Positions 1 through 49,435 of a stretch of 64,000 nt of DNA are shown here, piece by piece (position 1 is the first letter of the stretch; the number at the start of each line of letters is the position of its first letter). The DNA is from Enterocloster lavalensis (GTDB lineage: Bacteria; Bacillota; Clostridia; Lachnospirales; Lachnospiraceae). Made by a program: the position numbers and the translations under genes. Location of the stretch: positions 124,001-188,000 of the forward strand of contig NZ_CABJCG010000002.1 in assembly GCF_902364025.1 (NCBI RefSeq), given 5' to 3'. The notes under the pieces were generated by a model that saw only the letters and a program-made list of their open reading frames with translations, was not told the origin of the DNA and searched no databases.

Positions 1-50
1 TGTGATAACATGAAGGTACCAACAATTACAAAAAAATTTAGATTCATGTA

Positions 51-121
51 GAAAACTTATATATGCTCATAATCGGATGAGTGTTTCTACCAACTACCGC
101 AATAGTTGACTATGAGTTTTC
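51..121 (+). ncRNA. Purine riboswitch aptamer, guanine type
   Basis: A three-way-junction purine aptamer leads the guanine deaminase operon. P1 pairs 51-59 with 113-121. P2 pairs 66-70 with 77-81 and has loop AATCGG. P3 pairs 91-96 with 103-108 and has loop CCGCAA. The GG and CC of the two loops can kiss as in the family. The joining segment GTTTCTACC (82-90) and the 3' core TTGACTATGAG match the family. The specificity base before TATG is C, as in guanine/hypoxanthine switches (adenine switches have U). The downstream genes fit guanine sensing. Confidence 0.95.
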
Positions 122-197
122 GCATCCCTGCCGTCCGGCCATTGGAGACCGGAAGACAGGGGTGTGAACTTGCGTAAACAGCGGTAGTTGGTTTTTT
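90..197 (+). terminator. Riboswitch expression platform: conditional terminator
   Basis: Bases 181-191 (GCGGTAGTTGG) are the exact reverse complement of 90-100 (CCAACTACCGC) and are followed directly by six T. The 5' arm includes the whole 5' strand of aptamer stem P3, so the long hairpin and the folded aptamer exclude each other. Ligand binding should therefore prevent termination, an ON switch. The intervening loop holds its own small hairpin (about 126-161). The geometry is seen in the sequence; the direction of control is inferred. Confidence 0.75.
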
Positions 198-287
198 GTT
201 GGGTACAATTCAACTGGGAAATCCTGGGAGATTGTATGTGACCCCAGCCGTCCGGAAGGCTGGCCGCTGTTTGGCAGGGAGTTGAAA

Positions 288-1589
288 ATGGAAGGAAGTA
301 GGATGCCTATGAAAGAAACACGCAATTTTGTGCTCAGGGGCAACATCTGCTACAGCCTGGATCCGACAACGCTGGAAACCATAGAAGCGGGCTACCTGGT
401 CTGCGAGGACGGAACAAGCGCAGGCGTTTACCGGGAGCTGCCGGAGCAGTACGCCGGATGGCCACTAAAGGACTTCGGGGACCGGCTGATCATTCCCGGG
501 CTGACCGATCTCCATCTGCACGCGCCACAGTACGGCTTCCGCGGTCTGGGGATGGATCTGGAGCTTTTGGAATGGCTGAATACGCGGACATTCCCTGAGG
601 AGGCCAAGTACGGCGACTTAGAGTACGCCAGGAGAGGTTACACGATTTTTGCCGGGAATATGAAGCGCAGCGCCACCACCAGAGCCTGCATTTTCGCCAC
701 CATCCACCGGGAGTCCACGGTTATGCTCATGGACCTGATGGAGGAGACAGGTCTTAAGACCATGGTGGGCAAGGTGAATATGGACCGGAACAGCCCGGAT
801 ATCCTGATCGAGGAGAGCGCAGAGGCCTCCGCCCGGGATACGTTGGCCTGGCTGGAACAGATTCACGGGCGCTATGAGAATACAAGGCCCATTTTGACGC
901 CGCGGTTTATCCCCTCCTGTACGGATGAACTGATGGGGCGTTTGAAAGAGATTCAGAGGGATTTTGACCTTCCGGTCCAGTCCCATCTGTCGGAAAACCA
1001 GGGTGAGATCGCCTGGGTGAAGGAGCTTTGCCCCTGGTCTGAGTTTTATGGAGATGCTTACGACCACTTCGGACTTTTCGGAGGCGGAGTGGATACGGTG
1101 ATGGCCCACTGCGTGTGGCCGCCCGAGGCGGAGATCGCGCGGATGAAGGAGCGTGGCGTTTACGTGGCCCACTGTCCCCAGAGCAACACCAACTTATCCT
1201 CCGGTATCGCGCCGGTGCGCACCTATCTGGACCAGGGTATGAACATCGGCCTGGGGACGGACGTGGCTGGGGGAACCGGGGAGTCCGTGTTCCGGGCCAT
1301 GGCGGATGCGATCCAGGTGTCGAAGCTGCGCTGGCGGCTGACGGACGACCGCTTAAAGCCCCTGACGGCTCAGGAAGCGTTTTACCTTGGAACCAAGGGC
1401 GGCGGAGCCTTCTTCGGAAAGGTGGGAAGCTTTGAACCGGGTTATGAACTGGATGCGGTGGTTCTGGACGACGCAGAACTTCAGCATCCCCAGGAACTGG
1501 ATCTGGCCGAGCGGCTGGAGCGCCTGATTTACCTGTCCGACGACCGGCACATTGCCGGAAAATTCGTGGCGGGACGAAGAATCTTTTAG
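288..1589 (+). CDS. guaD: Guanine deaminase
   Basis: Cytosolic metal-dependent amidohydrolase converting guanine to xanthine and ammonia, the first step of guanine salvage or breakdown. The 433-residue length is normal. The metal-binding signature HLHAP lies near residue 76, SHLSE near 233, AHCVWPPEAE near 274 and GTDVAGG near 325, in the order expected for the GuaD family. The start is uncertain: TTG 282, ATG 288 (behind AGGGAG) and ATG 303 (behind AAGGAAG) are all possible. It is the first gene after the purine riboswitch and is followed by a purine permease and a xanthine-dehydrogenase-like enzyme, so the product xanthine can be passed on. Function is confident from motifs and context. Confidence 0.93.
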   Translation: MEGSRMPMKETRNFVLRGNICYSLDPTTLETIEAGYLVCEDGTSAGVYRELPEQYAGWPLKDFGDRLIIPGLTDLHLHAPQYGFRGLGMDLELLEWLNTRTFPEEAKYGDLEYARRGYTIFAGNMKRSATTRACIFATIHRESTVMLMDLMEETGLKTMVGKVNMDRNSPDILIEESAEASARDTLAWLEQIHGRYENTRPILTPRFIPSCTDELMGRLKEIQRDFDLPVQSHLSENQGEIAWVKELCPWSEFYGDAYDHFGLFGGGVDTVMAHCVWPPEAEIARMKERGVYVAHCPQSNTNLSSGIAPVRTYLDQGMNIGLGTDVAGGTGESVFRAMADAIQVSKLRWRLTDDRLKPLTAQEAFYLGTKGGGAFFGKVGSFEPGYELDAVVLDDAELQHPQELDLAERLERLIYLSDDRHIAGKFVAGRRIF

Positions 1590-1669: not shown

Positions 1670-3064
1670 ATGGAAACAAAGAACAACCAAGGATTTTTGG
1701 AAAAGGTGTTTCATCTGTCGGAGAACCACACCGACGTCAAGACAGAGGTAATCGCCGGTATTACCACGTTCATGACCATGGCGTACATACTGGCAGTTAA
1801 CCCCAACATTTTAAGTGATGCCGGAATGGACCGGGGAGCGGTGTTCACCGCTACGGCGCTGGCTTCCCTGGTGGCCACCCTCCTGATGGCCGCATTTGCC
1901 AACTATCCCTTCGTTCTGGCTCCCGGCATGGGCTTAAACGCGTATTTTGCCTACACCGTGGTGTTGCAGATGGGTTATACCTGGCAGATGGCTCTGGCCG
2001 CAGTGTTCGTGGAAGGCCTGATCTTCATCGCCCTGTCCCTGACCAATGTGCGTGAAGCGATTTTCAACGCCATCCCCATCAACTTAAAGCACGCGGTGTC
2101 CGCCGGTATCGGACTGTTCATCGCATTTATCGGACTTCAGAACGCGAAGATCGTTGTGGACAGCGCAACACTTGTTTCCGTTTATTCATTTAAAGGCTCC
2201 ATCGCGGCAGGCAACTTTAATTCCGAGGGAATTACCGTTCTGCTGGCGTTAATCGGAGTTCTGATCACCGGTATCCTGATCGTTAAGGGCATCAAGGGAA
2301 ATATCCTGTGGGGAATCCTGATCACCTGGATTTTAGGAATTCTCTGCGAAGTGACCGGCCTGTACCAGCCCAACGCGGACCTGGGCATGTTCAGCGTGAT
2401 TCCGGATTTCACGTCCGGTTTTGGTATTCCCAGCATGAAGGAAACCTTTATGCACGTAGATTTCAGCCGGGTACTGTCCCTGGACTTCCTGGTGGTAATG
2501 TTCGCGTTCCTGTTTGTGGATATGTTCGATACCCTGGGCACCCTGATCGGCGTGGCTTCCAAGGCGGATATGCTGGATAAGGACGGAAAGCTGCCGAAGA
2601 TCCGCGGCGCCCTGCTCTCCGACGCGATTGGTACTTCTTTAGGCGCACTGTTCGGAACCTCCACCACCACAACCTTCGTGGAGAGCGCCTCCGGCGTTGC
2701 GGAAGGCGGAAGAACCGGTCTGACCGCGGTGACTGCGGCTGCATTCTTCGGACTGAGCCTGTTCCTGTCCCCGATTTTCTTAGCCATCCCGTCCTTTGCA
2801 ACGGCTCCGGCTCTGATCGTGGTAGGATTTTTGATGATCTCCGCGATCCTGAAAGTGGATTTCAATGATTTTACGGAAGCGATCCCCGCATATATTGCAG
2901 TAATCGCAATGCCGTTTATGTACAGCATTTCCGAAGGTATCGCAATGGGCGTTATCTCTTACGTTGTAATCAATCTGGCTACCGGACGCGCCAAGGAGAA
3001 GAAGATCAGCGTGCTGATGTATGTCCTGGCCGTGTTGTTTGTGCTCAAGTATGTGATGATTTAA
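1670..3064 (+). CDS. AzgA/PbuG-type guanine-hypoxanthine permease
   Basis: Integral membrane proton-coupled nucleobase transporter of the NCS2/AzgA group, 464 residues, with about 12 to 14 hydrophobic segments. The N-terminal stretch TTFMTMAYILAVNP and the later FVDMFDTLGTLIGVA are typical of the PbuG/GhxP/AzgA branch rather than the UraA/XanQ branch. The start is fixed by AAGGAGG about nine bases upstream. It lies 80 bases after guaD and is probably co-transcribed under the riboswitch, supplying guanine or hypoxanthine to the deaminase. A GC-rich hairpin between the genes (about 1598-1625) has no T-run and may only tune expression. The exact purine specificity cannot be read from the sequence. 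Confidence 0.92.
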   Translation: METKNNQGFLEKVFHLSENHTDVKTEVIAGITTFMTMAYILAVNPNILSDAGMDRGAVFTATALASLVATLLMAAFANYPFVLAPGMGLNAYFAYTVVLQMGYTWQMALAAVFVEGLIFIALSLTNVREAIFNAIPINLKHAVSAGIGLFIAFIGLQNAKIVVDSATLVSVYSFKGSIAAGNFNSEGITVLLALIGVLITGILIVKGIKGNILWGILITWILGILCEVTGLYQPNADLGMFSVIPDFTSGFGIPSMKETFMHVDFSRVLSLDFLVVMFAFLFVDMFDTLGTLIGVASKADMLDKDGKLPKIRGALLSDAIGTSLGALFGTSTTTTFVESASGVAEGGRTGLTAVTAAAFFGLSLFLSPIFLAIPSFATAPALIVVGFLMISAILKVDFNDFTEAIPAYIAVIAMPFMYSISEGIAMGVISYVVINLATGRAKEKKISVLMYVLAVLFVLKYVMI

Positions 3065-3216: not shown

Positions 3217-3257
3217 AGCATCTGTAGGCGTTGGTTTAAAACCAGGAGGTATTGTCA

Positions 3258-5546
3258 ATGGCAGTTGGAAAAAGTATCATCCGCGTTGACGCATGCGAGA
3301 AGGTGACAGGCGGCGCCCAATATACGGCCGATCTGGAACCGAAAGGCGCTCTGGTCGCGAAAGTGGTCAGAAGTACCATCGCCAACGGGGTAGTAAAAGG
3401 ATTTGACCTGGAGGCGGCCCTGGCGGTGCCGGGAGTTGTGAAGATCGTCACATGTTTTGATGTGCCGGACTACCAGTTCCCCACCGCGGGCCATCCCTGG
3501 TCCGTGGAGACGGCCCATCAGGACATCGCGGACCGGAAGCTTTTAAACACACGAGTCCGCGTGTACGGCGACGATATCGCCGCCGTGGTTGCGGAGGATG
3601 AGATCGCCGCGGCCAGGGCAGCGCGGCTGGTGATGGTGGAATATGAAGAGTATCCGCCGCTTCTCACGCCGGAAGAAGCCCTGGCGGAGGGGGCGGCCCA
3701 GCTGCACGACGAGAAGCCGGGCAACCTGATCGCCCACTCCGGATTCAAGCTGGGCGAACTGAGCTACGAGGAGGCCGCAGAGGAAGAGGGCCTTGTTGTT
3801 ATCGACAAGAAGTACGGGACGCAAAGCGTGCAGCACTGCCATATAGAGACGCCGGTTTCCTTTGCCTACATGGAAAAAGGGCGTATTGTCGTAACTACCT
3901 CAACCCAGATCCCCCATATCGTGCGCCGGGTGATCAGTCAGGCGCTGGGCGTGCCTATGGGGATGATCCGGGTGATCAAGCCGTATATCGGCGGCGGGTT
4001 CGGCAATAAACAGGATGTGCTGTACGAGCCGTTAAACGCCTATCTGTGCACGTTGGTAGGCGGGCGCTGCGTGAAGATGGAGATCAGCAGGGAGGAAACA
4101 CTGGCCTGCACCAGAGTCCGCCACGCTATGGACCTTCACGTGAAGGCGGCGGCCAGGAAGGACGGCACCCTGGTGGCCAGAAAGCTTACCGCTTACTCCA
4201 ATCAGGGCGGATATGCCAGCCACGCTCACGCCATTGTGGCGAACACTTCAAATGAATTTAAACAGATTTATCACGATGAAAAAGCGCTGGAAGCCGACGC
4301 CTACACGGTGTACACCAACATCGCCACCGGCGGCGCCATGCGCGGTTACGGAATCCCCCAGGCCGCCTTTGCGGCGGAGTGCATGGCCGACGACCTGGCG
4401 TTGCAGCTGGGAATGGATCCCCTGGAATTCCGCAGAAAGAACTGTATGCAGGACGGGTATGAGGATCCTCACACCCATGTGAAGTTTAACTCCTACGGCC
4501 TCAGGAAATGTATGGAAAAGGGCCGGGAATTTATAGGCTGGGACGAGAAGCGCAGGGAATATGCGAATCAGACCGGGCCGGTGCGCAAGGGAATCGGAAT
4601 GGCGATTTTCTGCTACAAGACCGGAGTTTACCCCATCTCCCTGGAGACGGCCTCCTGCCGGATGGTCTTAAACCAGGACGGCTCCATGCAGCTGATGATG
4701 GGGGCCACCGAGATCGGCCAGGGCGCGGACACGGTATTTGCGCAGATGGCGGCTCAGGTCACCGGAATCACCGAGGACCGGGTTAATGTGATATCCACCC
4801 AGGACACGGATAGTTCGCCCTTTGACACCGGAGCTTACGCCTCCCGTCAGACCTATGTGAGCGGCAAGGCGGTGGTAAAGACAGGAACATTATTCAAAGA
4901 AAAGATTCTGGACTACGCTTCCTACATGTTGAAGCGTCCTATGGATACCCTGGATGTGAAGGAGAACTGCGTGGTGGAACGGGAGAGCGGGGAGGTTCTT
5001 CTCTCCATGGAGGAGCTGGCGACCACGGCGATCTACAGCCTGGACCGCTCTGTACATATTACGGCGGAAGCCACCAGCCACTGTAAGGACAATACCTTCG
5101 CCTCCGGAGCCTGCTTTGTGGAGGTGGAGGTGGATATGCCGTTGGGTAAGGTCAAGGTGACCAATATTATCAACGTCCACGACAGCGGCGTTCTCATCAA
5201 TCCCAAGCTGGCCGAGGCCCAGGTGCACGGCGGCATGAGCATGGGGCTGGGATACGGCCTCAGCGAACAGCTGCTCTTTGACGCCAAGGGACGGCCGTTA
5301 AACGACAACCTGTTGGACTACAAGCTGCCCACGGCCATGGATACGCCGGACCTTCACGTGGAATTTGTGGAGATCAACGATCCCACAGGGCCCTTCGGCA
5401 ACAAGGCGCTGGGCGAGCCGCCTGCGATTCCCGTGGCGCCGGCCATCCGCAACGCGGTGTTAAATGCAACCGGAGTGGCGGTGGACAGTCTGCCCATGGA
5501 CCCGCAGAAGATGGTGGCCCACTTCAAAGCAGCCGGACTCATATAG
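3258..5546 (+). CDS. xdhA: Xanthine dehydrogenase-type molybdopterin-binding subunit
   Basis: Catalytic large subunit of a molybdenum hydroxylase of the xanthine oxidase family, 762 residues. It likely hydroxylates xanthine or hypoxanthine, with electrons leaving through the FeS and FAD subunits encoded next. Visible motifs are the N-terminal VTGGAQYTADL, IGGGFGNKQD near residue 245, GAMRGYG near 360 and the C-terminal GEPPA near 718, which carries the catalytic glutamate. ATG 3258 is chosen because AGGAGGT lies seven bases upstream. Physiological direction and substrate are inferred from the neighbouring guaD and purine permease; related nicotinate or purine hydroxylases cannot be excluded. 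No molybdenum-cofactor assembly gene is present in the window. Confidence 0.9.
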   Translation: MAVGKSIIRVDACEKVTGGAQYTADLEPKGALVAKVVRSTIANGVVKGFDLEAALAVPGVVKIVTCFDVPDYQFPTAGHPWSVETAHQDIADRKLLNTRVRVYGDDIAAVVAEDEIAAARAARLVMVEYEEYPPLLTPEEALAEGAAQLHDEKPGNLIAHSGFKLGELSYEEAAEEEGLVVIDKKYGTQSVQHCHIETPVSFAYMEKGRIVVTTSTQIPHIVRRVISQALGVPMGMIRVIKPYIGGGFGNKQDVLYEPLNAYLCTLVGGRCVKMEISREETLACTRVRHAMDLHVKAAARKDGTLVARKLTAYSNQGGYASHAHAIVANTSNEFKQIYHDEKALEADAYTVYTNIATGGAMRGYGIPQAAFAAECMADDLALQLGMDPLEFRRKNCMQDGYEDPHTHVKFNSYGLRKCMEKGREFIGWDEKRREYANQTGPVRKGIGMAIFCYKTGVYPISLETASCRMVLNQDGSMQLMMGATEIGQGADTVFAQMAAQVTGITEDRVNVISTQDTDSSPFDTGAYASRQTYVSGKAVVKTGTLFKEKILDYASYMLKRPMDTLDVKENCVVERESGEVLLSMEELATTAIYSLDRSVHITAEATSHCKDNTFASGACFVEVEVDMPLGKVKVTNIINVHDSGVLINPKLAEAQVHGGMSMGLGYGLSEQLLFDAKGRPLNDNLLDYKLPTAMDTPDLHVEFVEINDPTGPFGNKALGEPPAIPVAPAIRNAVLNATGVAVDSLPMDPQKMVAHFKAAGLI

Positions 5547-5564: not shown

Positions 5565-6452
5565 ATGTATGATATTGAGAAATATGATCAGGCAGTGGAT
5601 GTTGCGGATGCCATCCGCGCCCTGGAAAATGATCCCGATGCAGTGGTGATTTCCGGCGGCAGCGATGTGCTGATCAAGATTCGCGAGGGTAAGCTGGCCG
5701 GGTGTTCCCTGGTGAGTATCCACGGAATCAAAGAGTTGGAGGGCGTTTCCCTGGAGCCGGACGGCACCATCGTGATCGGTCCCTGCACCACCTTCTCCCA
5801 TATTGCCAACAATGAAATTATCCGCCGCTATGTGCCCATGCTGGGCGACGCGGTGGATCAGGCCGGTGGTCCCCAGCTGCGCAACATCGGCACCATAGGC
5901 GGAAATGTCTGCAACGGCGTGACCAGCGCGGACAGCGCTTCCAGCCTGTGCTGCTTAAACGCGGTTCTGGTCCTTCAGGGGCCGGAGGGCGTGCGGGAAG
6001 TCCCCATCGGCGCCTGGTACGCCGGGCCGGGACGCACGGTGAGAAATCACAGCGAGGTGCTCACGGCCATCCGGATCCGCAAAGAGGACTACGAGGGATT
6101 TGGAGGCCACTACATCAAATACGGCAAACGAAACGCCATGGAGATCGCAACCCTGGGCTGCGCGGTATCCGTGAAGCTGGCGGAGGACAAACGGCATGTG
6201 GCCGACCTGCGCCTGGCATACGGGGTGGCCGCCCCGACACCCATCCGCTGCGGTAAAATCGAAGCGGAAGCGGTGGGCTGCGAGGCTGGAGAGGAGCTGG
6301 CGGAACGGATCGGCAAGGGCGCGCTGGAAGAGGTGAACCCGAGGTCCAGCTGGAGAGCTTCCAAGGAGTTCCGTCTGCAACTGGTGGAGGAACTGGCAAA
6401 ACGCGCCTTCAAGCAGGCGGTGCTGAATGCAGGGGGTGAGTGGAATGCTTAA
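5565..6452 (+). CDS. xdhB: Xanthine dehydrogenase FAD-binding subunit
   Basis: FAD-binding medium subunit of the molybdenum hydroxylase, 295 residues, which passes electrons from the FeS clusters to the final acceptor. The FAD signatures VISGGSDVLIKIREG near residue 26 and GGPQLRNIGTIGGNVCNG near 100 are clear. The C-terminal half matches the CO-dehydrogenase flavoprotein C-terminal domain. It starts 18 bases after the Mo subunit, behind AAGGGCGG, and its end overlaps the FeS subunit, consistent with translational coupling. The modular order Mo-FAD-FeS is common in Clostridia. Confidence 0.92.
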   Translation: MYDIEKYDQAVDVADAIRALENDPDAVVISGGSDVLIKIREGKLAGCSLVSIHGIKELEGVSLEPDGTIVIGPCTTFSHIANNEIIRRYVPMLGDAVDQAGGPQLRNIGTIGGNVCNGVTSADSASSLCCLNAVLVLQGPEGVREVPIGAWYAGPGRTVRNHSEVLTAIRIRKEDYEGFGGHYIKYGKRNAMEIATLGCAVSVKLAEDKRHVADLRLAYGVAAPTPIRCGKIEAEAVGCEAGEELAERIGKGALEEVNPRSSWRASKEFRLQLVEELAKRAFKQAVLNAGGEWNA

Positions 6453-6933
6453 AATCGTTCATATGGCGGTCAACGGAAATGATGTGGAAGTGGCCATCGA
6501 TCCCAGGGAGTCGCTGCTGGATACCCTGCGGAACCGTCTGGGACTGACCAGCGTAAAGAAGGGCTGCGAGGTCGGCGAGTGCGGCGCCTGTACGGTGCTG
6601 GTGGACGGAGAGGCCATTGACAGCTGTATCTATCTCACCGTCTGGGCAGAGGGGCGCAGAATCATGACCGTGGAGGGATTAAAGGGACCAAACGGCGAAT
6701 TAAGCCCCATCCAGAAGGCTTTTATCGAGGAAGCGGCGGTCCAGTGCGGCTTCTGTACGCCGGGCCTGATCATGTCCGCGGTGGAAATCGTGGGCACCGG
6801 AAAGCGGTACAACCGGGATGAGCTGCGCAAACTGATCTCCGGGCACCTGTGCCGGTGTACCGGATATGAGAATATCTTAAATGCTATGGAGCGTATTGTC
6901 GAGGAGACCTATAAGGTAGTGGGAGAGAGCTGA
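6445..6933 (+). CDS. xdhC: Xanthine dehydrogenase 2Fe-2S subunit
   Basis: Small electron-transfer subunit of 162 residues with two [2Fe-2S] clusters. The plant-ferredoxin-like cluster is bound by GCEVGECGACTVLVDG plus the later DSC (residues about 41-62). The second, all-helical cluster is bound by QCGFCTPG and GHLCRCTGYENI near residues 101 and 136. ATG 6445 is preferred because AGGGGGTGAG precedes it; an upstream in-frame ATG at 6427 would lengthen the overlap with xdhB. It is the last gene of the purine module, and the 3' side holds a GC-rich palindrome shared with the far side of the toxin-antitoxin locus. Confidence 0.93.
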   Translation: MLKIVHMAVNGNDVEVAIDPRESLLDTLRNRLGLTSVKKGCEVGECGACTVLVDGEAIDSCIYLTVWAEGRRIMTVEGLKGPNGELSPIQKAFIEEAAVQCGFCTPGLIMSAVEIVGTGKRYNRDELRKLISGHLCRCTGYENILNAMERIVEETYKVVGES

Positions 6934-7938: not shown

Positions 7939-8889
7939 ATGAAAAAGAACAGAAAAGCAATTCTTGCAATGATCACAACGGCGGTGCTGGCGGCTGGCGC
8001 TTTGGCGGGCTGCGGCAGCGCTTCAGGAAATACCACGGAGGCTGCCGGGACGGAGACTGGGACCACAGCGTCCACGGCGGCGGACACGTCCGCAGATACC
8101 ACCGCGGACACCACGACGGCGGAAACGGCTGCGGATGAGACTGCCGCGGATTTAAGCGGCTCCATCAGCATGGTGGGCTCCACTTCCATGGAGAAGTTCG
8201 CCAACGCGCTGAGCGAGGCATTTATGGAAAAATACCCGGATGTGACGGTTTCCGCCCAGTTTGTGGGCTCCGGCGCAGGGGTTGAGGCGGTGTTGAACGG
8301 GACCGCGGATATCGGCAACTCCTCCAGGAACTTAAAGGACGAGGAGAAGGAAAAGGGCGCTGTGGAAAATATCGTAGCCATCGACGGAATTGCCGTGGTG
8401 GTGGACCCGGCCAACGGGGTTGGGGATCTGACCAGAGAGCAGCTGGCGGACGTCTACACCGGCAAGATCAATAACTGGAAGGATCTGGGAGGATCCGACG
8501 CCCCCATCGTTGTGGTGGGACGCGAGTCCGGTTCCGGCACCCGCGGAGCGTTCGAGGAGCTTCTGGGGCTGGAGGACGCCTGCAAGTACAGCAATGAGCT
8601 GGACAGCACCGGAGCGGTGATGGCAAAGGTGGCTTCCACCCCCGGTTCCATCGGTTATGTGTCCCTGGACGTGCTGGACGATACGGTGAAGGCGCTGAAT
8701 CTGGAGGGGGCCGAGCCCACCGAGGAGAACATCAAGGCCGGAAGTTATTTCTTAAGCCGCCCCTTCGTGATGGCTACCAAGGGAGATTTGAGCCAGCAGA
8801 GCGAGTTGGTGCAGGCGCTGTTCGCCTACCTTCGGTCCGACGAAGGCGCAGAGCTGGTGAAATCGGTGGGCCTGATCACCATCGAGTAA
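7939..8889 (+). CDS. pstS: Phosphate ABC transporter substrate-binding lipoprotein
   Basis: Membrane-anchored extracellular phosphate-binding protein of the Pst high-affinity uptake system, 316 residues. The signal peptide ends in the lipobox LAGC near residue 25, followed by a Thr/Ala/Asp-rich linker to about residue 72. The mature domain contains the phosphate-loop signatures GSTSMEKF, GSGAGVEAVLNG and GRESGSGTRGAFEE. An AGGCATAGG-type ribosome site precedes ATG 7939. It heads pstSCAB-phoU; two strong stem-loops separate it from pstC, which usually lets the binding protein be made in excess. Confidence 0.96.
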   Translation: MKKNRKAILAMITTAVLAAGALAGCGSASGNTTEAAGTETGTTASTAADTSADTTADTTTAETAADETAADLSGSISMVGSTSMEKFANALSEAFMEKYPDVTVSAQFVGSGAGVEAVLNGTADIGNSSRNLKDEEKEKGAVENIVAIDGIAVVVDPANGVGDLTREQLADVYTGKINNWKDLGGSDAPIVVVGRESGSGTRGAFEELLGLEDACKYSNELDSTGAVMAKVASTPGSIGYVSLDVLDDTVKALNLEGAEPTEENIKAGSYFLSRPFVMATKGDLSQQSELVQALFAYLRSDEGAELVKSVGLITIE

Positions 8890-8893
8890 CCGG

Positions 8894-8989
8894 GACTGGC
8901 GGACTGTTCCGGCAAAACGCCGGAATTACTGCCCGCCGGTCAGAACCTGCGAGGCGTGTTGCGGTCTGTTGTGTGCACTGCGACACGCC
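8894..8989 (+). other. Two stem-loops between pstS and pstC
   Basis: Stem-loop 1 (8894-8941) pairs GACTGGCGG with CCGCCGGTC around an inner GTTCCGGC/GCCGGAAT stem. Stem-loop 2 (8953-8989) pairs GGCGTGT with ACACGCC. Neither has a T-run, so they are better read as 3'-end stabilisers of pstS mRNA or partial attenuators than as full terminators. Confidence 0.6.
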
Positions 8990-9014
8990 GGTCGTTTGAA
9001 AGGAGAGACACTGC

Positions 9015-9953
9015 ATGAGCTCGGAAACCATTTCCATTCGTTCCCACCACGGCAGCAAGTCTGCGGTTGAAAAGGCAGCCCAGGTGATCTTTACGGCCTG
9101 CGGCTTTTTCGCTGTGCTGGCGGTGGCGTCCATCGCTCTTTATATGGTGGTCAGCGGGACCCCGGCGCTGTTTAAGGTGGGGATACTGGAAATCCTGTTT
9201 GGCAGCGTGTGGCGCCCGGATGGGGTGGAGGCGTCCTTCGGTATCCTCTACGTGATCCTCACCTCCATCGTGGGCACCTCCATGGCGATTCTCATCGGAG
9301 TGCCCATCGGCGTGATGACGGCCGTGTTCCTGGCCGAGGTGGCGCCGCCCAGGCTGGCGGGCTTTGTCCGCCCGGCCGTGGAGCTGCTGGCCGGAATTCC
9401 TTCCGTGATTTACGGCCTTCTGGGAATTCTGATTTTAAACCCGCTGATGTATAAGCTGGAGCTGATTATTTTCAAAGGCTCCCAGACCCATCAGTTTACC
9501 GGCGGCGCCAATCTCATTTCCGCCGTGCTGGTGCTGGCGCTGATGATACTGCCCACGGTGATCAATATCAGCGAGTCCGCGCTGCGGGCCGTGCCGGTTC
9601 AGCTTCGCAGCGCCTCCCTGGCGCTGGGGGCCACGAAAATACAGACGATTTTCCATGTGGCGCTCCCCGCGGCCAGGTCCGGGATCATCACCGCGATTGT
9701 GCTGGGAACCGGGCGCGCCATCGGCGAGGCCATGGCCATCAGCCTGGTGTCGGGCAGCTCGGTCAACCTGCCTTTGCCCTTTAATTCCGTCCGCTTCCTG
9801 ACCACGGCCATTGTGTCGGAGATGGGATATGCGGCTGGGCTGCACCGGGAGGTGTTGTTCACCATCGGTCTGGTGCTGTTTGCATTTATCATGATCATCA
9901 ATGCCAGCCTGACCGGGCTGCTGAAGAAGGGAGGAAACAGGAATGACAGGTGA
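9015..9953 (+). CDS. pstC: Phosphate ABC transporter permease PstC
   Basis: Integral membrane permease subunit of the Pst phosphate importer, 312 residues with about six transmembrane segments. A cytoplasmic N-terminus precedes a first helix near residues 25-45. The EAA-type coupling loop is visible as ALGATKIQTIFHVALPAARSGI near residue 200, and GTGRAIGEAMA follows, as in the family. AAAGGAG precedes ATG 9015. It overlaps pstA by 11 bases, so the two permeases are translationally coupled. Confidence 0.95.
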   Translation: MSSETISIRSHHGSKSAVEKAAQVIFTACGFFAVLAVASIALYMVVSGTPALFKVGILEILFGSVWRPDGVEASFGILYVILTSIVGTSMAILIGVPIGVMTAVFLAEVAPPRLAGFVRPAVELLAGIPSVIYGLLGILILNPLMYKLELIIFKGSQTHQFTGGANLISAVLVLALMILPTVINISESALRAVPVQLRSASLALGATKIQTIFHVALPAARSGIITAIVLGTGRAIGEAMAISLVSGSSVNLPLPFNSVRFLTTAIVSEMGYAAGLHREVLFTIGLVLFAFIMIINASLTGLLKKGGNRNDR

Positions 9954-10848
9954 AGCGGCCATTCGGATTCATAAACAGTCCGTGGTGCGAAAGAGCATTT
10001 ACGGCAGGCATGTGCGCATGTCGGACCTGATTCTCACCGGCCTCATCTATCTGTGCGCCGGTCTCTCCATCGCCATACTGGCCGGGATCATGGGCTATGT
10101 GTTTGCGCGGGGAATCCCGAACATCAGCTGGCGGTTTCTCACCACGGTCACCAGCGCCACCAAGGGCACCTTTGGAATATTGGGAAATATTGTAAACACG
10201 TTGTACATTGTGGTGATCACGCTGCTGATCGCGACACCCATCGGAATCGGGGCGGCGATCTACCTGAACGAGTACGCCAGGCCGGGGCGTCTGGTGAAAG
10301 CCATTGAGTTCACCACCGAGACGTTGTCCGGCATACCGTCCATTATTTTCGGCCTCTTTGGTATGGTGTTTTTTGGAAATACACTGGGCCTCAAATATTC
10401 CATTCTCACCGGCGCGCTGACGCTGACCCTGATGATTCTGCCGCTGATCACGCGGACCACCCAGGAGGCGTTAAAAACGGTGCCGGACAGCTACCGGAGC
10501 GGCGCTCTTGGCATCGGGGCCACAAAATGGTATATGATCCGCACCATCCTGCTGCCCAGCGCCATGCCGGGAATTCTCACCGGCGTGATTTTGGCCATCG
10601 GCCGGATCGTGGGCGAGTCGGCGGCCCTTCTGTTCACCGCGGGCAGCGGTTACTACATGCCCAGAAACTGGCTGGGCAAGGTGATGGAGCCGGGCGGAAC
10701 CCTGACGATTCAGCTCTATCTGTTCATGCAGAAGGCGAAGTACAACGAGGCGTTCGGCGTGGCGGTGGTATTACTGGCAATCGTTCTGGCCATCAACGGG
10801 CTGGCCAGATATTTATCCCGAAAATTCAATGTGGAGACCGGCGCATAG
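9943..10848 (+). CDS. pstA: Phosphate ABC transporter permease PstA
   Basis: Second membrane subunit of the Pst importer, 301 residues with about six transmembrane helices. The ABC-coupling loop [23 protein letters not shown] sits near residue 185, followed by [18 protein letters not shown], typical of PstA. The start ATG lies inside the 3' end of pstC behind GGGAGG. It is followed closely by pstB. Confidence 0.95.
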
Positions 10849-10867
10849 AGCCGGGGAGGAGAATCAC

Positions 10868-11629
10868 GTGGAAGCAAAGACAAAAATTTCGGCCCGGAGT
10901 CTGAACCTGTATTACGGTGAAAATCACGCGTTAAAGGATATCAGCCTGGACCTGTATGAACATAAAATCACCGCGTTTATCGGGCCGTCGGGCTGCGGAA
11001 AATCCACCTTTTTAAAGACCTTGAACCGCATGAACGACCTGGTGGCCGGTGTGAAAATAGACGGGACGGTGCTGCTGGACGAGGAAGATATCTATGATCC
11101 CCAGGTGGATACCACGCTTCTTCGCAAGAAGATCGGCATGGTGTTCCAGCAGCCCAACCCATTTCCCATGAGCATCTACGACAACGTGGCCTACGGTCCC
11201 AGAATCCACGGCGTTAAGAACAAGGCCCGGCTGGACGAGATTGTGGAGAGCAGCCTGCGGGGCGCGGCGCTGTGGGACGAGGTTTCCGACCGGCTGAGGA
11301 AGCCGGCGCTGGGGCTTTCCGGCGGCCAGCAGCAGAGGCTGTGCATCGCCAGGGCATTGGCGGTGGAGCCGGAGGTGCTTCTGATGGATGAGCCGACTTC
11401 GGCGCTGGACCCCATCTCCACTCTGAAGATCGAGGATTTGATGGACGACTTAAAGAGCCGTTATACGGTGGCGATTGTCACCCATAACATGCAGCAGGCG
11501 GCGCGGATCGCCGACTACACGGCGTTTTTCCTGGTGGGCGAGGTGGTGGAGTACGCCGCCACGGACGAACTGTTCACCGTGCCGCGGGATAAGCGCACGG
11601 AAGACTATATTACCGGGCGTTTCGGGTGA
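10868..11629 (+). CDS. pstB: Phosphate ABC transporter ATPase PstB
   Basis: Cytoplasmic ATPase that powers phosphate import, 253 residues, normal for PstB. Walker A is GPSGCGKST near residue 38, the signature is LSGGQQQR, Walker B is [11 protein letters not shown], and the switch histidine is in [12 protein letters not shown] 10868 is chosen because GGGGAGGAG stands about seven bases upstream; a longer frame from 10829 would overlap pstA without a ribosome site. Confidence 0.95.
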
Positions 11630-11707
11630 CGGAAGGTTTGGCAGCGGGTGCAAACGCACAGCGGCCAGCCGAACGGGTGGAGCCGGGCGTTGGGAAAGGG
11701 GTTTAAG

Positions 11708-12370
11708 ATGAGCGTTAGAGTGACATATGAACATGAACTGGGGCTGCTTAACCAGGATTTGATGGAGATGGCCCACATGGTGGAGCGGGCCATTGAGCAG
11801 ACCTTCACAGCCTTTGAAGATCAGGATTTTCAGATGGCAGAGGACATCATCAAGGGCGACCGCACGGTCAACGACATGGAGCGGGCCATCGAGGCCCGGT
11901 GCCTGTCCCTGATCCTGCGCCAGCAGCCTGTGGCCGGGGACCTGCGCCAGGTTTCCACCGCGCTGAAGGTGGTGACGGATCTGGAGCGGATCGGGGACCA
12001 TGCCTCGGATATCGCGGAGCTGATTCTGCGCATCAAGAGCGATCACGCGTATCACATTGTAAAGCACCTGCCGGCAATGGCGGCGGCGGCTGGGAAAATG
12101 GTTCACGACGCCATCGAGGCGTTTATCAACCGGGATCTGGACGCGGCCGTCTCCATTATCAAGCGGGACGACGAGGTGGACAATCTGTTCAACCAGGTGA
12201 AAACGGACGTGATCCAGCTGCTTCGGGTATCGCCAGACCAGGCGGACCAGGGCATCGACCTGCTGATGGTGGCGAAATATCTGGAGCGCATCGGGGATCA
12301 CGCAGTCAACGTGTGCGAGTGGACCCAGTTCTCCAGGACAGGGGCTCTGAAAAATGTGAGAATTATGTAA
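11708..12370 (+). CDS. phoU: Phosphate signalling regulator PhoU
   Basis: Cytoplasmic all-helical protein of 220 residues that couples Pst activity to PhoR/PhoP signalling and restrains phosphate uptake. Two PhoU repeats each carry the metal-site pattern DLERIGDHASDIAE (near residue 97) or YLERIGDHAVNVCE (near 197). ATG 11708 follows GGAAAGGGG. It closes the pst operon; no phoR/phoP pair lies in the window. A candidate terminator follows at 12410. Confidence 0.95.
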   Translation: MSVRVTYEHELGLLNQDLMEMAHMVERAIEQTFTAFEDQDFQMAEDIIKGDRTVNDMERAIEARCLSLILRQQPVAGDLRQVSTALKVVTDLERIGDHASDIAELILRIKSDHAYHIVKHLPAMAAAAGKMVHDAIEAFINRDLDAAVSIIKRDDEVDNLFNQVKTDVIQLLRVSPDQADQGIDLLMVAKYLERIGDHAVNVCEWTQFSRTGALKNVRIM

Positions 12371-49190: not shown

Positions 49191-49274
49191 TGCGGGTAGC
49201 CGGACTTGAACCGGCACGGAGTCGCCTCCGAGGGATTTTAAGTCCCTTGTGTCTGCCTATTCCACCATACCCGC
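49191..49274 (-). tRNA. tRNA-Leu (anticodon TAA)
   Basis: An 84-base cloverleaf on the minus strand starting GCGGGTATGGTGG and ending GGCTACCCGC plus discriminator A. The acceptor stem GCGGGTA/TACCCGC is perfect, the T-loop GGTTCAAGTCC is present, and the long variable arm expected of leucine tRNA is there. The anticodon TAA reads within ACTTAAAAT. The 3' CCA is not encoded. Confidence 0.95.
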
Positions 49275-49353: not shown

Positions 49354-49435
49354 TGGGCGGAGGTGGATTCGAACCACCGAAGCAATTTGCAGCAGATTTA
49401 CAGTCTGTCCCCTTTGGCCACTCGGGAATCCGCCC
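49354..49435 (-). tRNA. tRNA-Tyr (anticodon GTA)
   Basis: An 82-base cloverleaf on the minus strand starting GGGCGGATTCCCGAG and ending CCACCTCCGCCC plus discriminator A. The acceptor stem GGGCGGA/TCCGCCC is perfect, the T-loop GGTTCGAATCC is present, and the class II long variable arm fits bacterial tRNA-Tyr. The anticodon GTA reads in ACTGTAAATC. It lies 79 bases upstream of tRNA-Leu on the same strand, so they are probably co-transcribed. No CCA is encoded. Confidence 0.95.

Follow-up and report, generated by a model that had tools for sequence, protein, structure and literature searches.

A guanine-I riboswitch predicted to act as a transcriptional ON switch of a purine-breakdown operon in Enterocloster lavalensis

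The DNA analyzed here (hereinafter, the window) is a stretch of 64,000 nucleotides from an Enterocloster lavalensis contig (NZ_CABJCG010000002.1, positions 124,001 to 188,000), which opens with a purine riboswitch leader followed by genes of purine transport and breakdown. The features of the leader and of the downstream genes are listed below in window coordinates.

6..11, + strand: likely -10 box TAACAT with an extended TG; the -35 box TTGACA lies just beyond the window edge and was read in the nearest genome (G001)
37..132, + strand: purine riboswitch aptamer with a guanine-type core (RF00167, 51.2 bits; gathering threshold, 37; E = 9.2e-6; 86.9 bits with our own covariance model R1, which has the window itself among its building sequences)
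51..61, + strand: 5' strand of P1, partner 111-121
65..82, + strand: P2 hairpin (65-70/77-82) with L2 (71-76), from the Rfam alignment and pairing table
83..90, + strand: J2/3, GUUUCUAC, in agreement with the Rfam consensus; U88 corresponds to U51
90..100, + strand: 5' arm of the terminator, made of the last base of J2/3, the 5' strand of P3 and the start of L3
91..108, + strand: P3 hairpin (91-96/103-108) with L3 (97-102), from the Rfam alignment and pairing table
109..110, + strand: J3/1, A-C; C110 corresponds to C74, the guanine specifier
111..121, + strand: 3' strand of P1, of which 113-117 is re-paired with 168-172 in the terminator fold
121..166, + strand: stable hairpin common to both predicted folds, with a role suggested by analogy with P4 of pbuE as described in PMC7707468
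181..191, + strand: 3' arm of the terminator, an exact complement of 90-100
192..197, + strand: U-tract of the terminator, T6 in the sequence
303..1589, + strand: guanine deaminase, start at 282, 303 or 309 (TIGR02967, 2.7e-105, 352.6 bits, under the curated cut-off of 375.4)
1670..3064, + strand: NCS2-type purine permease (PF00860, 7.4e-44; an NCBIfam search of this protein gave no match)
3252..5546, + strand: molybdenum subunit of xanthine dehydrogenase, XdhA (NF043082, 1232.5 bits, over the cut-off)
5565..6452, + strand: FAD subunit of xanthine dehydrogenase, XdhB (NF043083, 425.5 bits, over the cut-off)
6427..6933, + strand: 2Fe-2S subunit of xanthine dehydrogenase, XdhC, true start probably slightly later (NF043084, 256.2 bits, over the cut-off)

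The catabolic character of the operon, proposed in the initial annotation, is borne out by these profile searches, and the combination of guanine deaminase, permease and XdhA/XdhB/XdhC implies that the genes should convert guanine to xanthine and onward towards urate. The putative promoter (TTGACA, an 18-nucleotide spacer and TAACAT) was read in G001 at positions 1482-1511 of locus L003, where 1501 equals window position 1, and is a weak prediction, since a single match was obtained against an average of 1.2 in shuffled sequences. Further into the window, open reading frames at 7939-12370, judged by eye, resemble a phosphate ABC transport operon with a PhoU-like protein last, and Rfam places two tRNA genes on the minus strand, at 49191-49274 and 49354-49435.

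In the Rfam alignment and pairing table, P1 comprises 52-61/111-120, to which the G51-C121 pair is added in the full fold. The residues U22, U51 and C74, which are the guanine contacts of the guanine-I pocket in the relevant part of PMC9295807, align with U62, U88 and C110 of the window, and neither J2/3 (GUUUCUAC) nor J3/1 (AC) has a single insertion relative to the RF00167 model. Judged by these core residues, the window aptamer is of the guanine-I class, and guanine would be its ligand; the position that specifies adenine when it is U74 is occupied by C110. Identity with the xanthine-II or guanine-II variants was considered and rejected, as the aptamer has no J2/3 insertion and no U51G. The 2'-deoxyguanosine variants are marked by altered junction residues; the window agrees with the RF00167 consensus. 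Another purine aptamer of G001, upstream of a gene for a FAD-dependent protein (L004:1501-1547, minus strand; C1 302422-302468), scores below the RF00167 threshold and looks decayed: J2/3, P3 and the U-tract are kept and the UAUA segment of J1/2 is missing.

The sequence gcggtagttgg at 181-191 is the exact reverse complement of ccaactaccgc at 90-100 over all 11 bases and is followed by TTTTTT at 192-197, precisely as the initial annotation had it. Its equation of 90-100 with the 5' strand of P3 has to be amended, being correct for 91-96 and incorrect for 90, the last base of J2/3, and for 97-100, which belong to L3. When 121-191 was shuffled 20000 times with dinucleotide content preserved, no shuffle placed a perfect 11-base complement of the aptamer immediately next to the T-run, and 9 had an anchored complement of at least 8 bases; an 11-base complement anywhere in shuffled 121-197 was found in 5 of 20000.

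The minimum-energy fold of 40-197 is the terminator fold (-57.8 kcal/mol, z = -5.1), in which 89-100/181-192, 105-107/177-179, 109-110/174-175, 113-117/168-172 and 120-130/157-167 are paired and P1 and P3 are abolished; in the full transcript, the pair probabilities are 0.86-1.0 for 90-100/181-191 and 0.0 for P1. The aptamer fold has the lowest energy in transcripts with ends from 125 to 170 (sampled at every fifth length), and the terminator fold is ahead by 0.3-1.0 kcal/mol at 175-185, by 7.0 at 190 and by 8.8 at 195-197. When the aptamer is enforced, the hairpin region 121-166 is kept, a weak hairpin of 4+3 bp is added at 167-189, and fold prediction yields no terminator beside the U-tract within 121-197, so that the decision would fall within the final ten bases or so ahead of the U-tract. 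Both folds are thus predicted and cannot coexist, which upholds the earlier claim that aptamer folding and termination are mutually exclusive. Once complete, the terminator fold is favored by about 9 kcal/mol, which makes a kinetic switch probable; thermodynamics alone favors termination, and accordingly an ON model needs kinetic gating.

The closest known switch, pbuE of Bacillus subtilis, controls a purine exporter, whereas the target of the window leader is a breakdown operon; unlike pbuE, which has U74, the window has C74 and so is of the guanine class, and its 3' arm ends on L3 and the 5' strand of P3. The likeness lies in the platform. In pbuE, an adenine-responsive transcriptional ON switch, formation of the terminator dismantles P1 and P3, and one hairpin is present in both states; this hairpin helps to start the strand exchange that the ligand blocks, as described in PMC7707468 and PMC9756952. 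Correspondingly, the full-length fold of the window contains a terminator made from P1 and P3 strands, and a hairpin around 121-166 is present in both folds, whereas the U-tract terminator compatible with an intact aptamer that is typical of xpt and yxjA is absent from the aptamer-enforced fold.

Relatives of the leader were collected from the best 80 of 220 confirmed guanine-deaminase loci (the deaminase set). Aptamers were identified with R1, a covariance model built from 36 sequences (the window, 14 deaminase-set loci and 21 loci of the genus), which was used in place of a regular-expression scan that missed aptamers the model found (e.g., in L049, L050, L081 and L098). Wiring was called by folding each leader up to its U-tract, with BOTH denoting an aptamer-invading terminator plus a hairpin formed entirely downstream, at -8 kcal/mol or below; the script misplaces junctions in odd aptamers (e.g., L115, L125, L178, L188, L216, L230 and L240). 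An aptamer on the strand of the gene is present in 66 of these best 80 loci (63 within 450 nt upstream and 3 about 1.7-1.9 kb upstream), and the R1 search gave no aptamer match in the other 14. A permease gene lies within 3 kb downstream in 37 of the 66 loci and XdhA within 5.5 kb in 34 of the 66, where at least 3 kb of downstream sequence is available for 59. Among the 63 close-upstream aptamers of the best 80 loci, 45 could be called: 42 show wiring through L3 and the 5' strand of P3 (36 ON and 6 BOTH), 3 show ON wiring through the 3' strands of P1 and P3, and none shows OFF wiring. In the remaining 18 (L054, L060, L062-L069, L071, L074, L078, L081, L083, L086, L099 and L107) no U-tract terminator was called; in some of these, a hairpin seemingly invades the 3' strand of P1 instead. 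L3/P3 wiring reaches as far as L112, which is labelled Synergistaceae. Independently of folding, the arm was compared with P3/L3 for uninterrupted pairing (G-U allowed): 7 or more consecutive pairs occur in 38 of 50 leaders from the deaminase set, a total to which the window and four more distant aptamers belong, versus 3 of 70 OFF-called phylum leaders.

The arm also varies together with the aptamer. In 25 distinct deaminase-set leaders of the L3/P3 type (including a second aptamer of L051, at 7380, past the start of the gene), differences in the aptamer are accompanied by differences in the arm closest to the U-tract, and only 6 of 10000 permutations matched the pairing of each arm with its own aptamer. 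Compensatory changes are seen at the third base of L3 (G-C to T-A in L070), the third base of P3 (A-T to G-C in L072) and the fourth base of L3 (T to C-G in the window and L088), and in L244, L250 and L254, from the even family sample, strongly altered P3 strands are accompanied by arms altered to match. For 42 distinct leaders selected for pairing (from the deaminase set and the family, genus and phylum loci), the own arm gave -13.24 kcal/mol against -9.17 for swapped arms, equaled in 0 of 20000 permutations; the window duplex, at -21.2 kcal/mol, is stronger than most of these. For 37 distinct deaminase leaders, unselected and read at the first U-tract, the values are -10.0 and -8.61 (sd 0.27) kcal/mol, again with 0 of 20000, and windows elsewhere in the linker average -4.17 kcal/mol (33 leaders); with this unselected test cut to nine leaders, one per distinct 9-mer, 248 of 20000 permutations were as good. 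These swap and permutation tests, like the Fisher tests below, ignore the relatedness of the sequences; moreover, the aptamer itself requires a conserved P3 5' strand and L3, so the pairing argument is weaker where they do not vary. Conservation of the complementarity in relatives with guanine deaminase, on which the initial annotation had made its reading depend, is thus found in most callable leaders (42 of 45), with co-variation.

We extended the survey to the genus (30 of 37 matches read), a family sample and the phylum (130 of 142 matches outside G001 read). In the genus, 27 of the 30 loci are ON or BOTH, preceding genes for guanine deaminase (10), XdhA (6), permease (5), FAD protein (5) and adenine deaminase (1). 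Two are OFF, L013 before a permease gene and L015 before guanine deaminase, each having a hairpin with a U-tract roughly 90 nt past the aptamer, and one (L030) was called none, although ON-type pairing is seen in its leader fold; the 11 guanine-deaminase loci of the genus accordingly divide into 10 ON, BOTH counted in, and 1 OFF. L013 and L015 keep the aptamer and may represent a reversal of the sign of the switch or a loss of control. Aptamer matches in the family sample come from 9 of 40 genomes and yield 12 new loci, 7 of which precede guanine deaminase; the U-tract arm is paired to the aptamer in 10, one has a downstream-only hairpin and one is without a U-tract.

In the phylum, RF00167 matches were found in 73 of 149 genomes, and the 130 loci fall into 69 OFF, 2 OFF?, 27 ON, 1 BOTH and 31 none; 70 of the 96 C74 loci with a call are OFF. 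The C74 loci called ON precede XDH-type genes in 11 cases, synthesis or salvage genes in 1, transport genes in 10 and other or unassigned genes in 4, the corresponding numbers being 1, 29, 28 and 12 for OFF loci and 4, 10, 11 and 6 for uncalled ones. Thus, in the phylum sample, XDH genes lie mainly behind ON-wired aptamers and purine synthesis genes behind OFF-wired ones (11 ON and 1 OFF versus 1 ON and 29 OFF; Fisher p = 3.3e-8, relatedness ignored); without L224 and L226, two XdhB-like ON loci with an aberrant J2/3 that may be xanthine-II, the counts are 9/1 versus 1/29 (p = 3.6e-7). The expected OFF targets, with families assigned by Pfam, comprise 29 OFF, 10 uncalled and 1 ON locus, and the ON call of L219 (guaB) rests on weak pairing. 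Transport genes are found behind both wirings. As a control, the U74-scored ON loci L197 (adenine deaminase) and L198 (MFS transporter) show the pbuE pattern. These two and L229 are left out of the phylum counts as scored non-C74; L229, called OFF, looks like C74 with a misplaced junction, and L241, counted as C74 ON, seems to have U74 and lies before an MFS transporter gene, the counts being left unchanged in both cases. OFF wiring before breakdown-type genes does exist, given the OFF-called C74 loci L195 (adenine deaminase) and L129 (a molybdopterin-dehydrogenase FAD domain by Pfam); L129 is counted as unassigned, and the Fisher values were computed without its XDH-like assignment.

Taken together, it is very probable that the leader is a guanine-I riboswitch that turns purine breakdown on at the level of transcription, in which case guanine would raise expression of the operon. 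The aptamer, transcribed first, would hold its predicted minimum-energy fold to about nucleotide 170, and the strong hairpin at 121-166 is predicted to form next in either state, likely as the seed for strand exchange by analogy with P4 of pbuE. On emerging, nucleotides 167-191 would displace the 3' strand of P1, J3/1 and P3 through an exchange modeled on pbuE and would then pair with L3 and the 5' strand of P3, completing a terminator with six U. Guanine in the three-way junction may hold P1 and P3 until the polymerase has passed the U-tract, so that guanine deaminase, permease and xanthine dehydrogenase would be produced in response to guanine.

An ordinary guanine OFF switch, in which the guanine-stabilized aptamer lets a separate downstream terminator form, would agree with the behavior of characterized guanine switches, with most of the called C74 loci of the phylum (70 of 96) and with the one guanine-deaminase locus of the genus that was called OFF (L015). 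However, with the aptamer kept, the 121-166 hairpin has no U residues after it and the weak 167-189 hairpin ends two bases before the U-tract; the sole U-tract terminator seen borrows its 5' arm from the aptamer, and the predicted folds show no antiterminator that would exclude the terminator yet spare the aptamer. A terminator coexisting with the aptamer was sought in the folds and none was found, and we regard this reading as barely credible. Loss of switching, with the pairing inherited and the terminator leaky, is scarcely more probable: the aptamer of L004 that lost the UAUA of J1/2 indicates that decay seems to occur in this lineage, but the window aptamer is intact, its arm duplex is stronger than most of the 42 compared, and window 1-700 is 98% identical in G001.

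A different natural ligand for an ON-wired leader (hypoxanthine, xanthine or a variant ligand) is unlikely. In its favor, the operon also handles xanthine, the selectivity of guanine-I pockets over hypoxanthine and xanthine is only about 10-fold according to PMC9295807, and related deaminase aptamers often have U or C before C74. Against this, the window has A at that position, U22, U51 and C74, together with J2/3 and J3/1 free of insertions, are characteristic of guanine-I, and the first gene encodes guanine deaminase. In the 68 deaminase-set aptamers, J3/1 is AC in 33, TC in 24 and CC in 8, versus AC in 51 of 71 OFF-called phylum loci; position 73 is thus often U (L039, L041, L043, L052 and L061, with GUCUA) or C (L042, L048 and L051, with GCCUA).

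The guanine-I riboswitch is a textbook OFF switch and a drug-target model. The window shares its aptamer class and C74 with xpt, yxjA, the Clostridioides difficile set and nupR, and guanine-I examples are described as OFF in PMC11477304, PMC9756952, PMC9430930 and PMC10907184; these descriptions cover C. difficile, Bacillus thuringiensis nupR, B. subtilis yxjA and, in PMC9295807, Paenibacillus guanine-I. These cases and the phylum sample agree with the remark of the initial annotation that OFF predominates among known guanine switches, and PMC5912903 calls such switches 'typically' OFF. PMC9756952 contrasts pbuE (ON, with overlap through P3) with the OFF switch yxjA, in which, as described there, the terminator overlap stops short of the ligand-binding part; in the window, the overlap enters that part and the logic is reversed. 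According to PMC9295807, guanine-II of Paenibacillus likewise senses guanine and is predicted to be ON, but its J2/3 carries an insertion and the genes behind it are mostly those for phosphoribosyltransferases, whereas the window has no insertion and precedes guanine deaminase. The same paper describes xanthine-II as predicted ON and located before purine-breakdown genes including xanthine dehydrogenase, with some terminator stems partly overlapping the aptamer; unlike the window, which keeps the guanine pocket, it has U51G and insertions in J2/3 and J3/1, and the one tested binds xanthine only. Xanthine-I (NMT1) differs from the window aptamer in architecture and ligand set. Of two further papers, one makes the general point that certain riboswitches turn on pathways of degradation (PMC2258182) and the other reports covariation of P1, terminator and antiterminator in purine riboswitches under an OFF-type scheme (PMC3723493). 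Within the open-licence PMC main text, we found no guanine-I ON switch reported upstream of genes for guanine deaminase or xanthine dehydrogenase; what is seen here is a known aptamer joined to a known type of platform, in a combination that we did not find described and that recurs in a clade.

Whether the guanine-I riboswitch has been turned, in Lachnospiraceae, into a dedicated activator of a purine-breakdown regulon, with at least two terminator layouts, OFF wiring rare and wiring that largely predicts synthesis versus breakdown genes, is in our estimate an evenly balanced question. The genes of this putative regulon are those for guanine deaminase, xanthine dehydrogenase, purine permease, an uncharacterized FAD protein and, in one genome, adenine deaminase, and the two layouts on the same aptamer use the 5' strand of P3 with L3, or the 3' strands of P1 and P3. 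If the scenario holds, it would represent a conserved group of reversed sign among gut bacteria whose guanine breakdown leads towards uric acid, guanine analogues could turn breakdown genes on in these species, and OFF and ON platforms could be compared naturally on one aptamer.

Several loci deserve separate mention. Guanine-type aptamers lie upstream of an uncharacterized FAD-dependent protein in L016 (where the PF21688 C-terminal domain was detected), L017, L018, L027, L028, L243 and L253; all were called ON-wired except L253, and the protein perhaps performs a further step of purine breakdown. L023:2-1465 (minus strand) has a C74 aptamer with L3/P3 ON wiring before an adenine deaminase gene (TIGR01178, over the cut-off), where U74 might be expected. 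Finally, the aptamers of L110, L111 and L051:7380-7478, which adjoin guanine-deaminase genes, have an extra base in J3/1 and are possible ligand variants.
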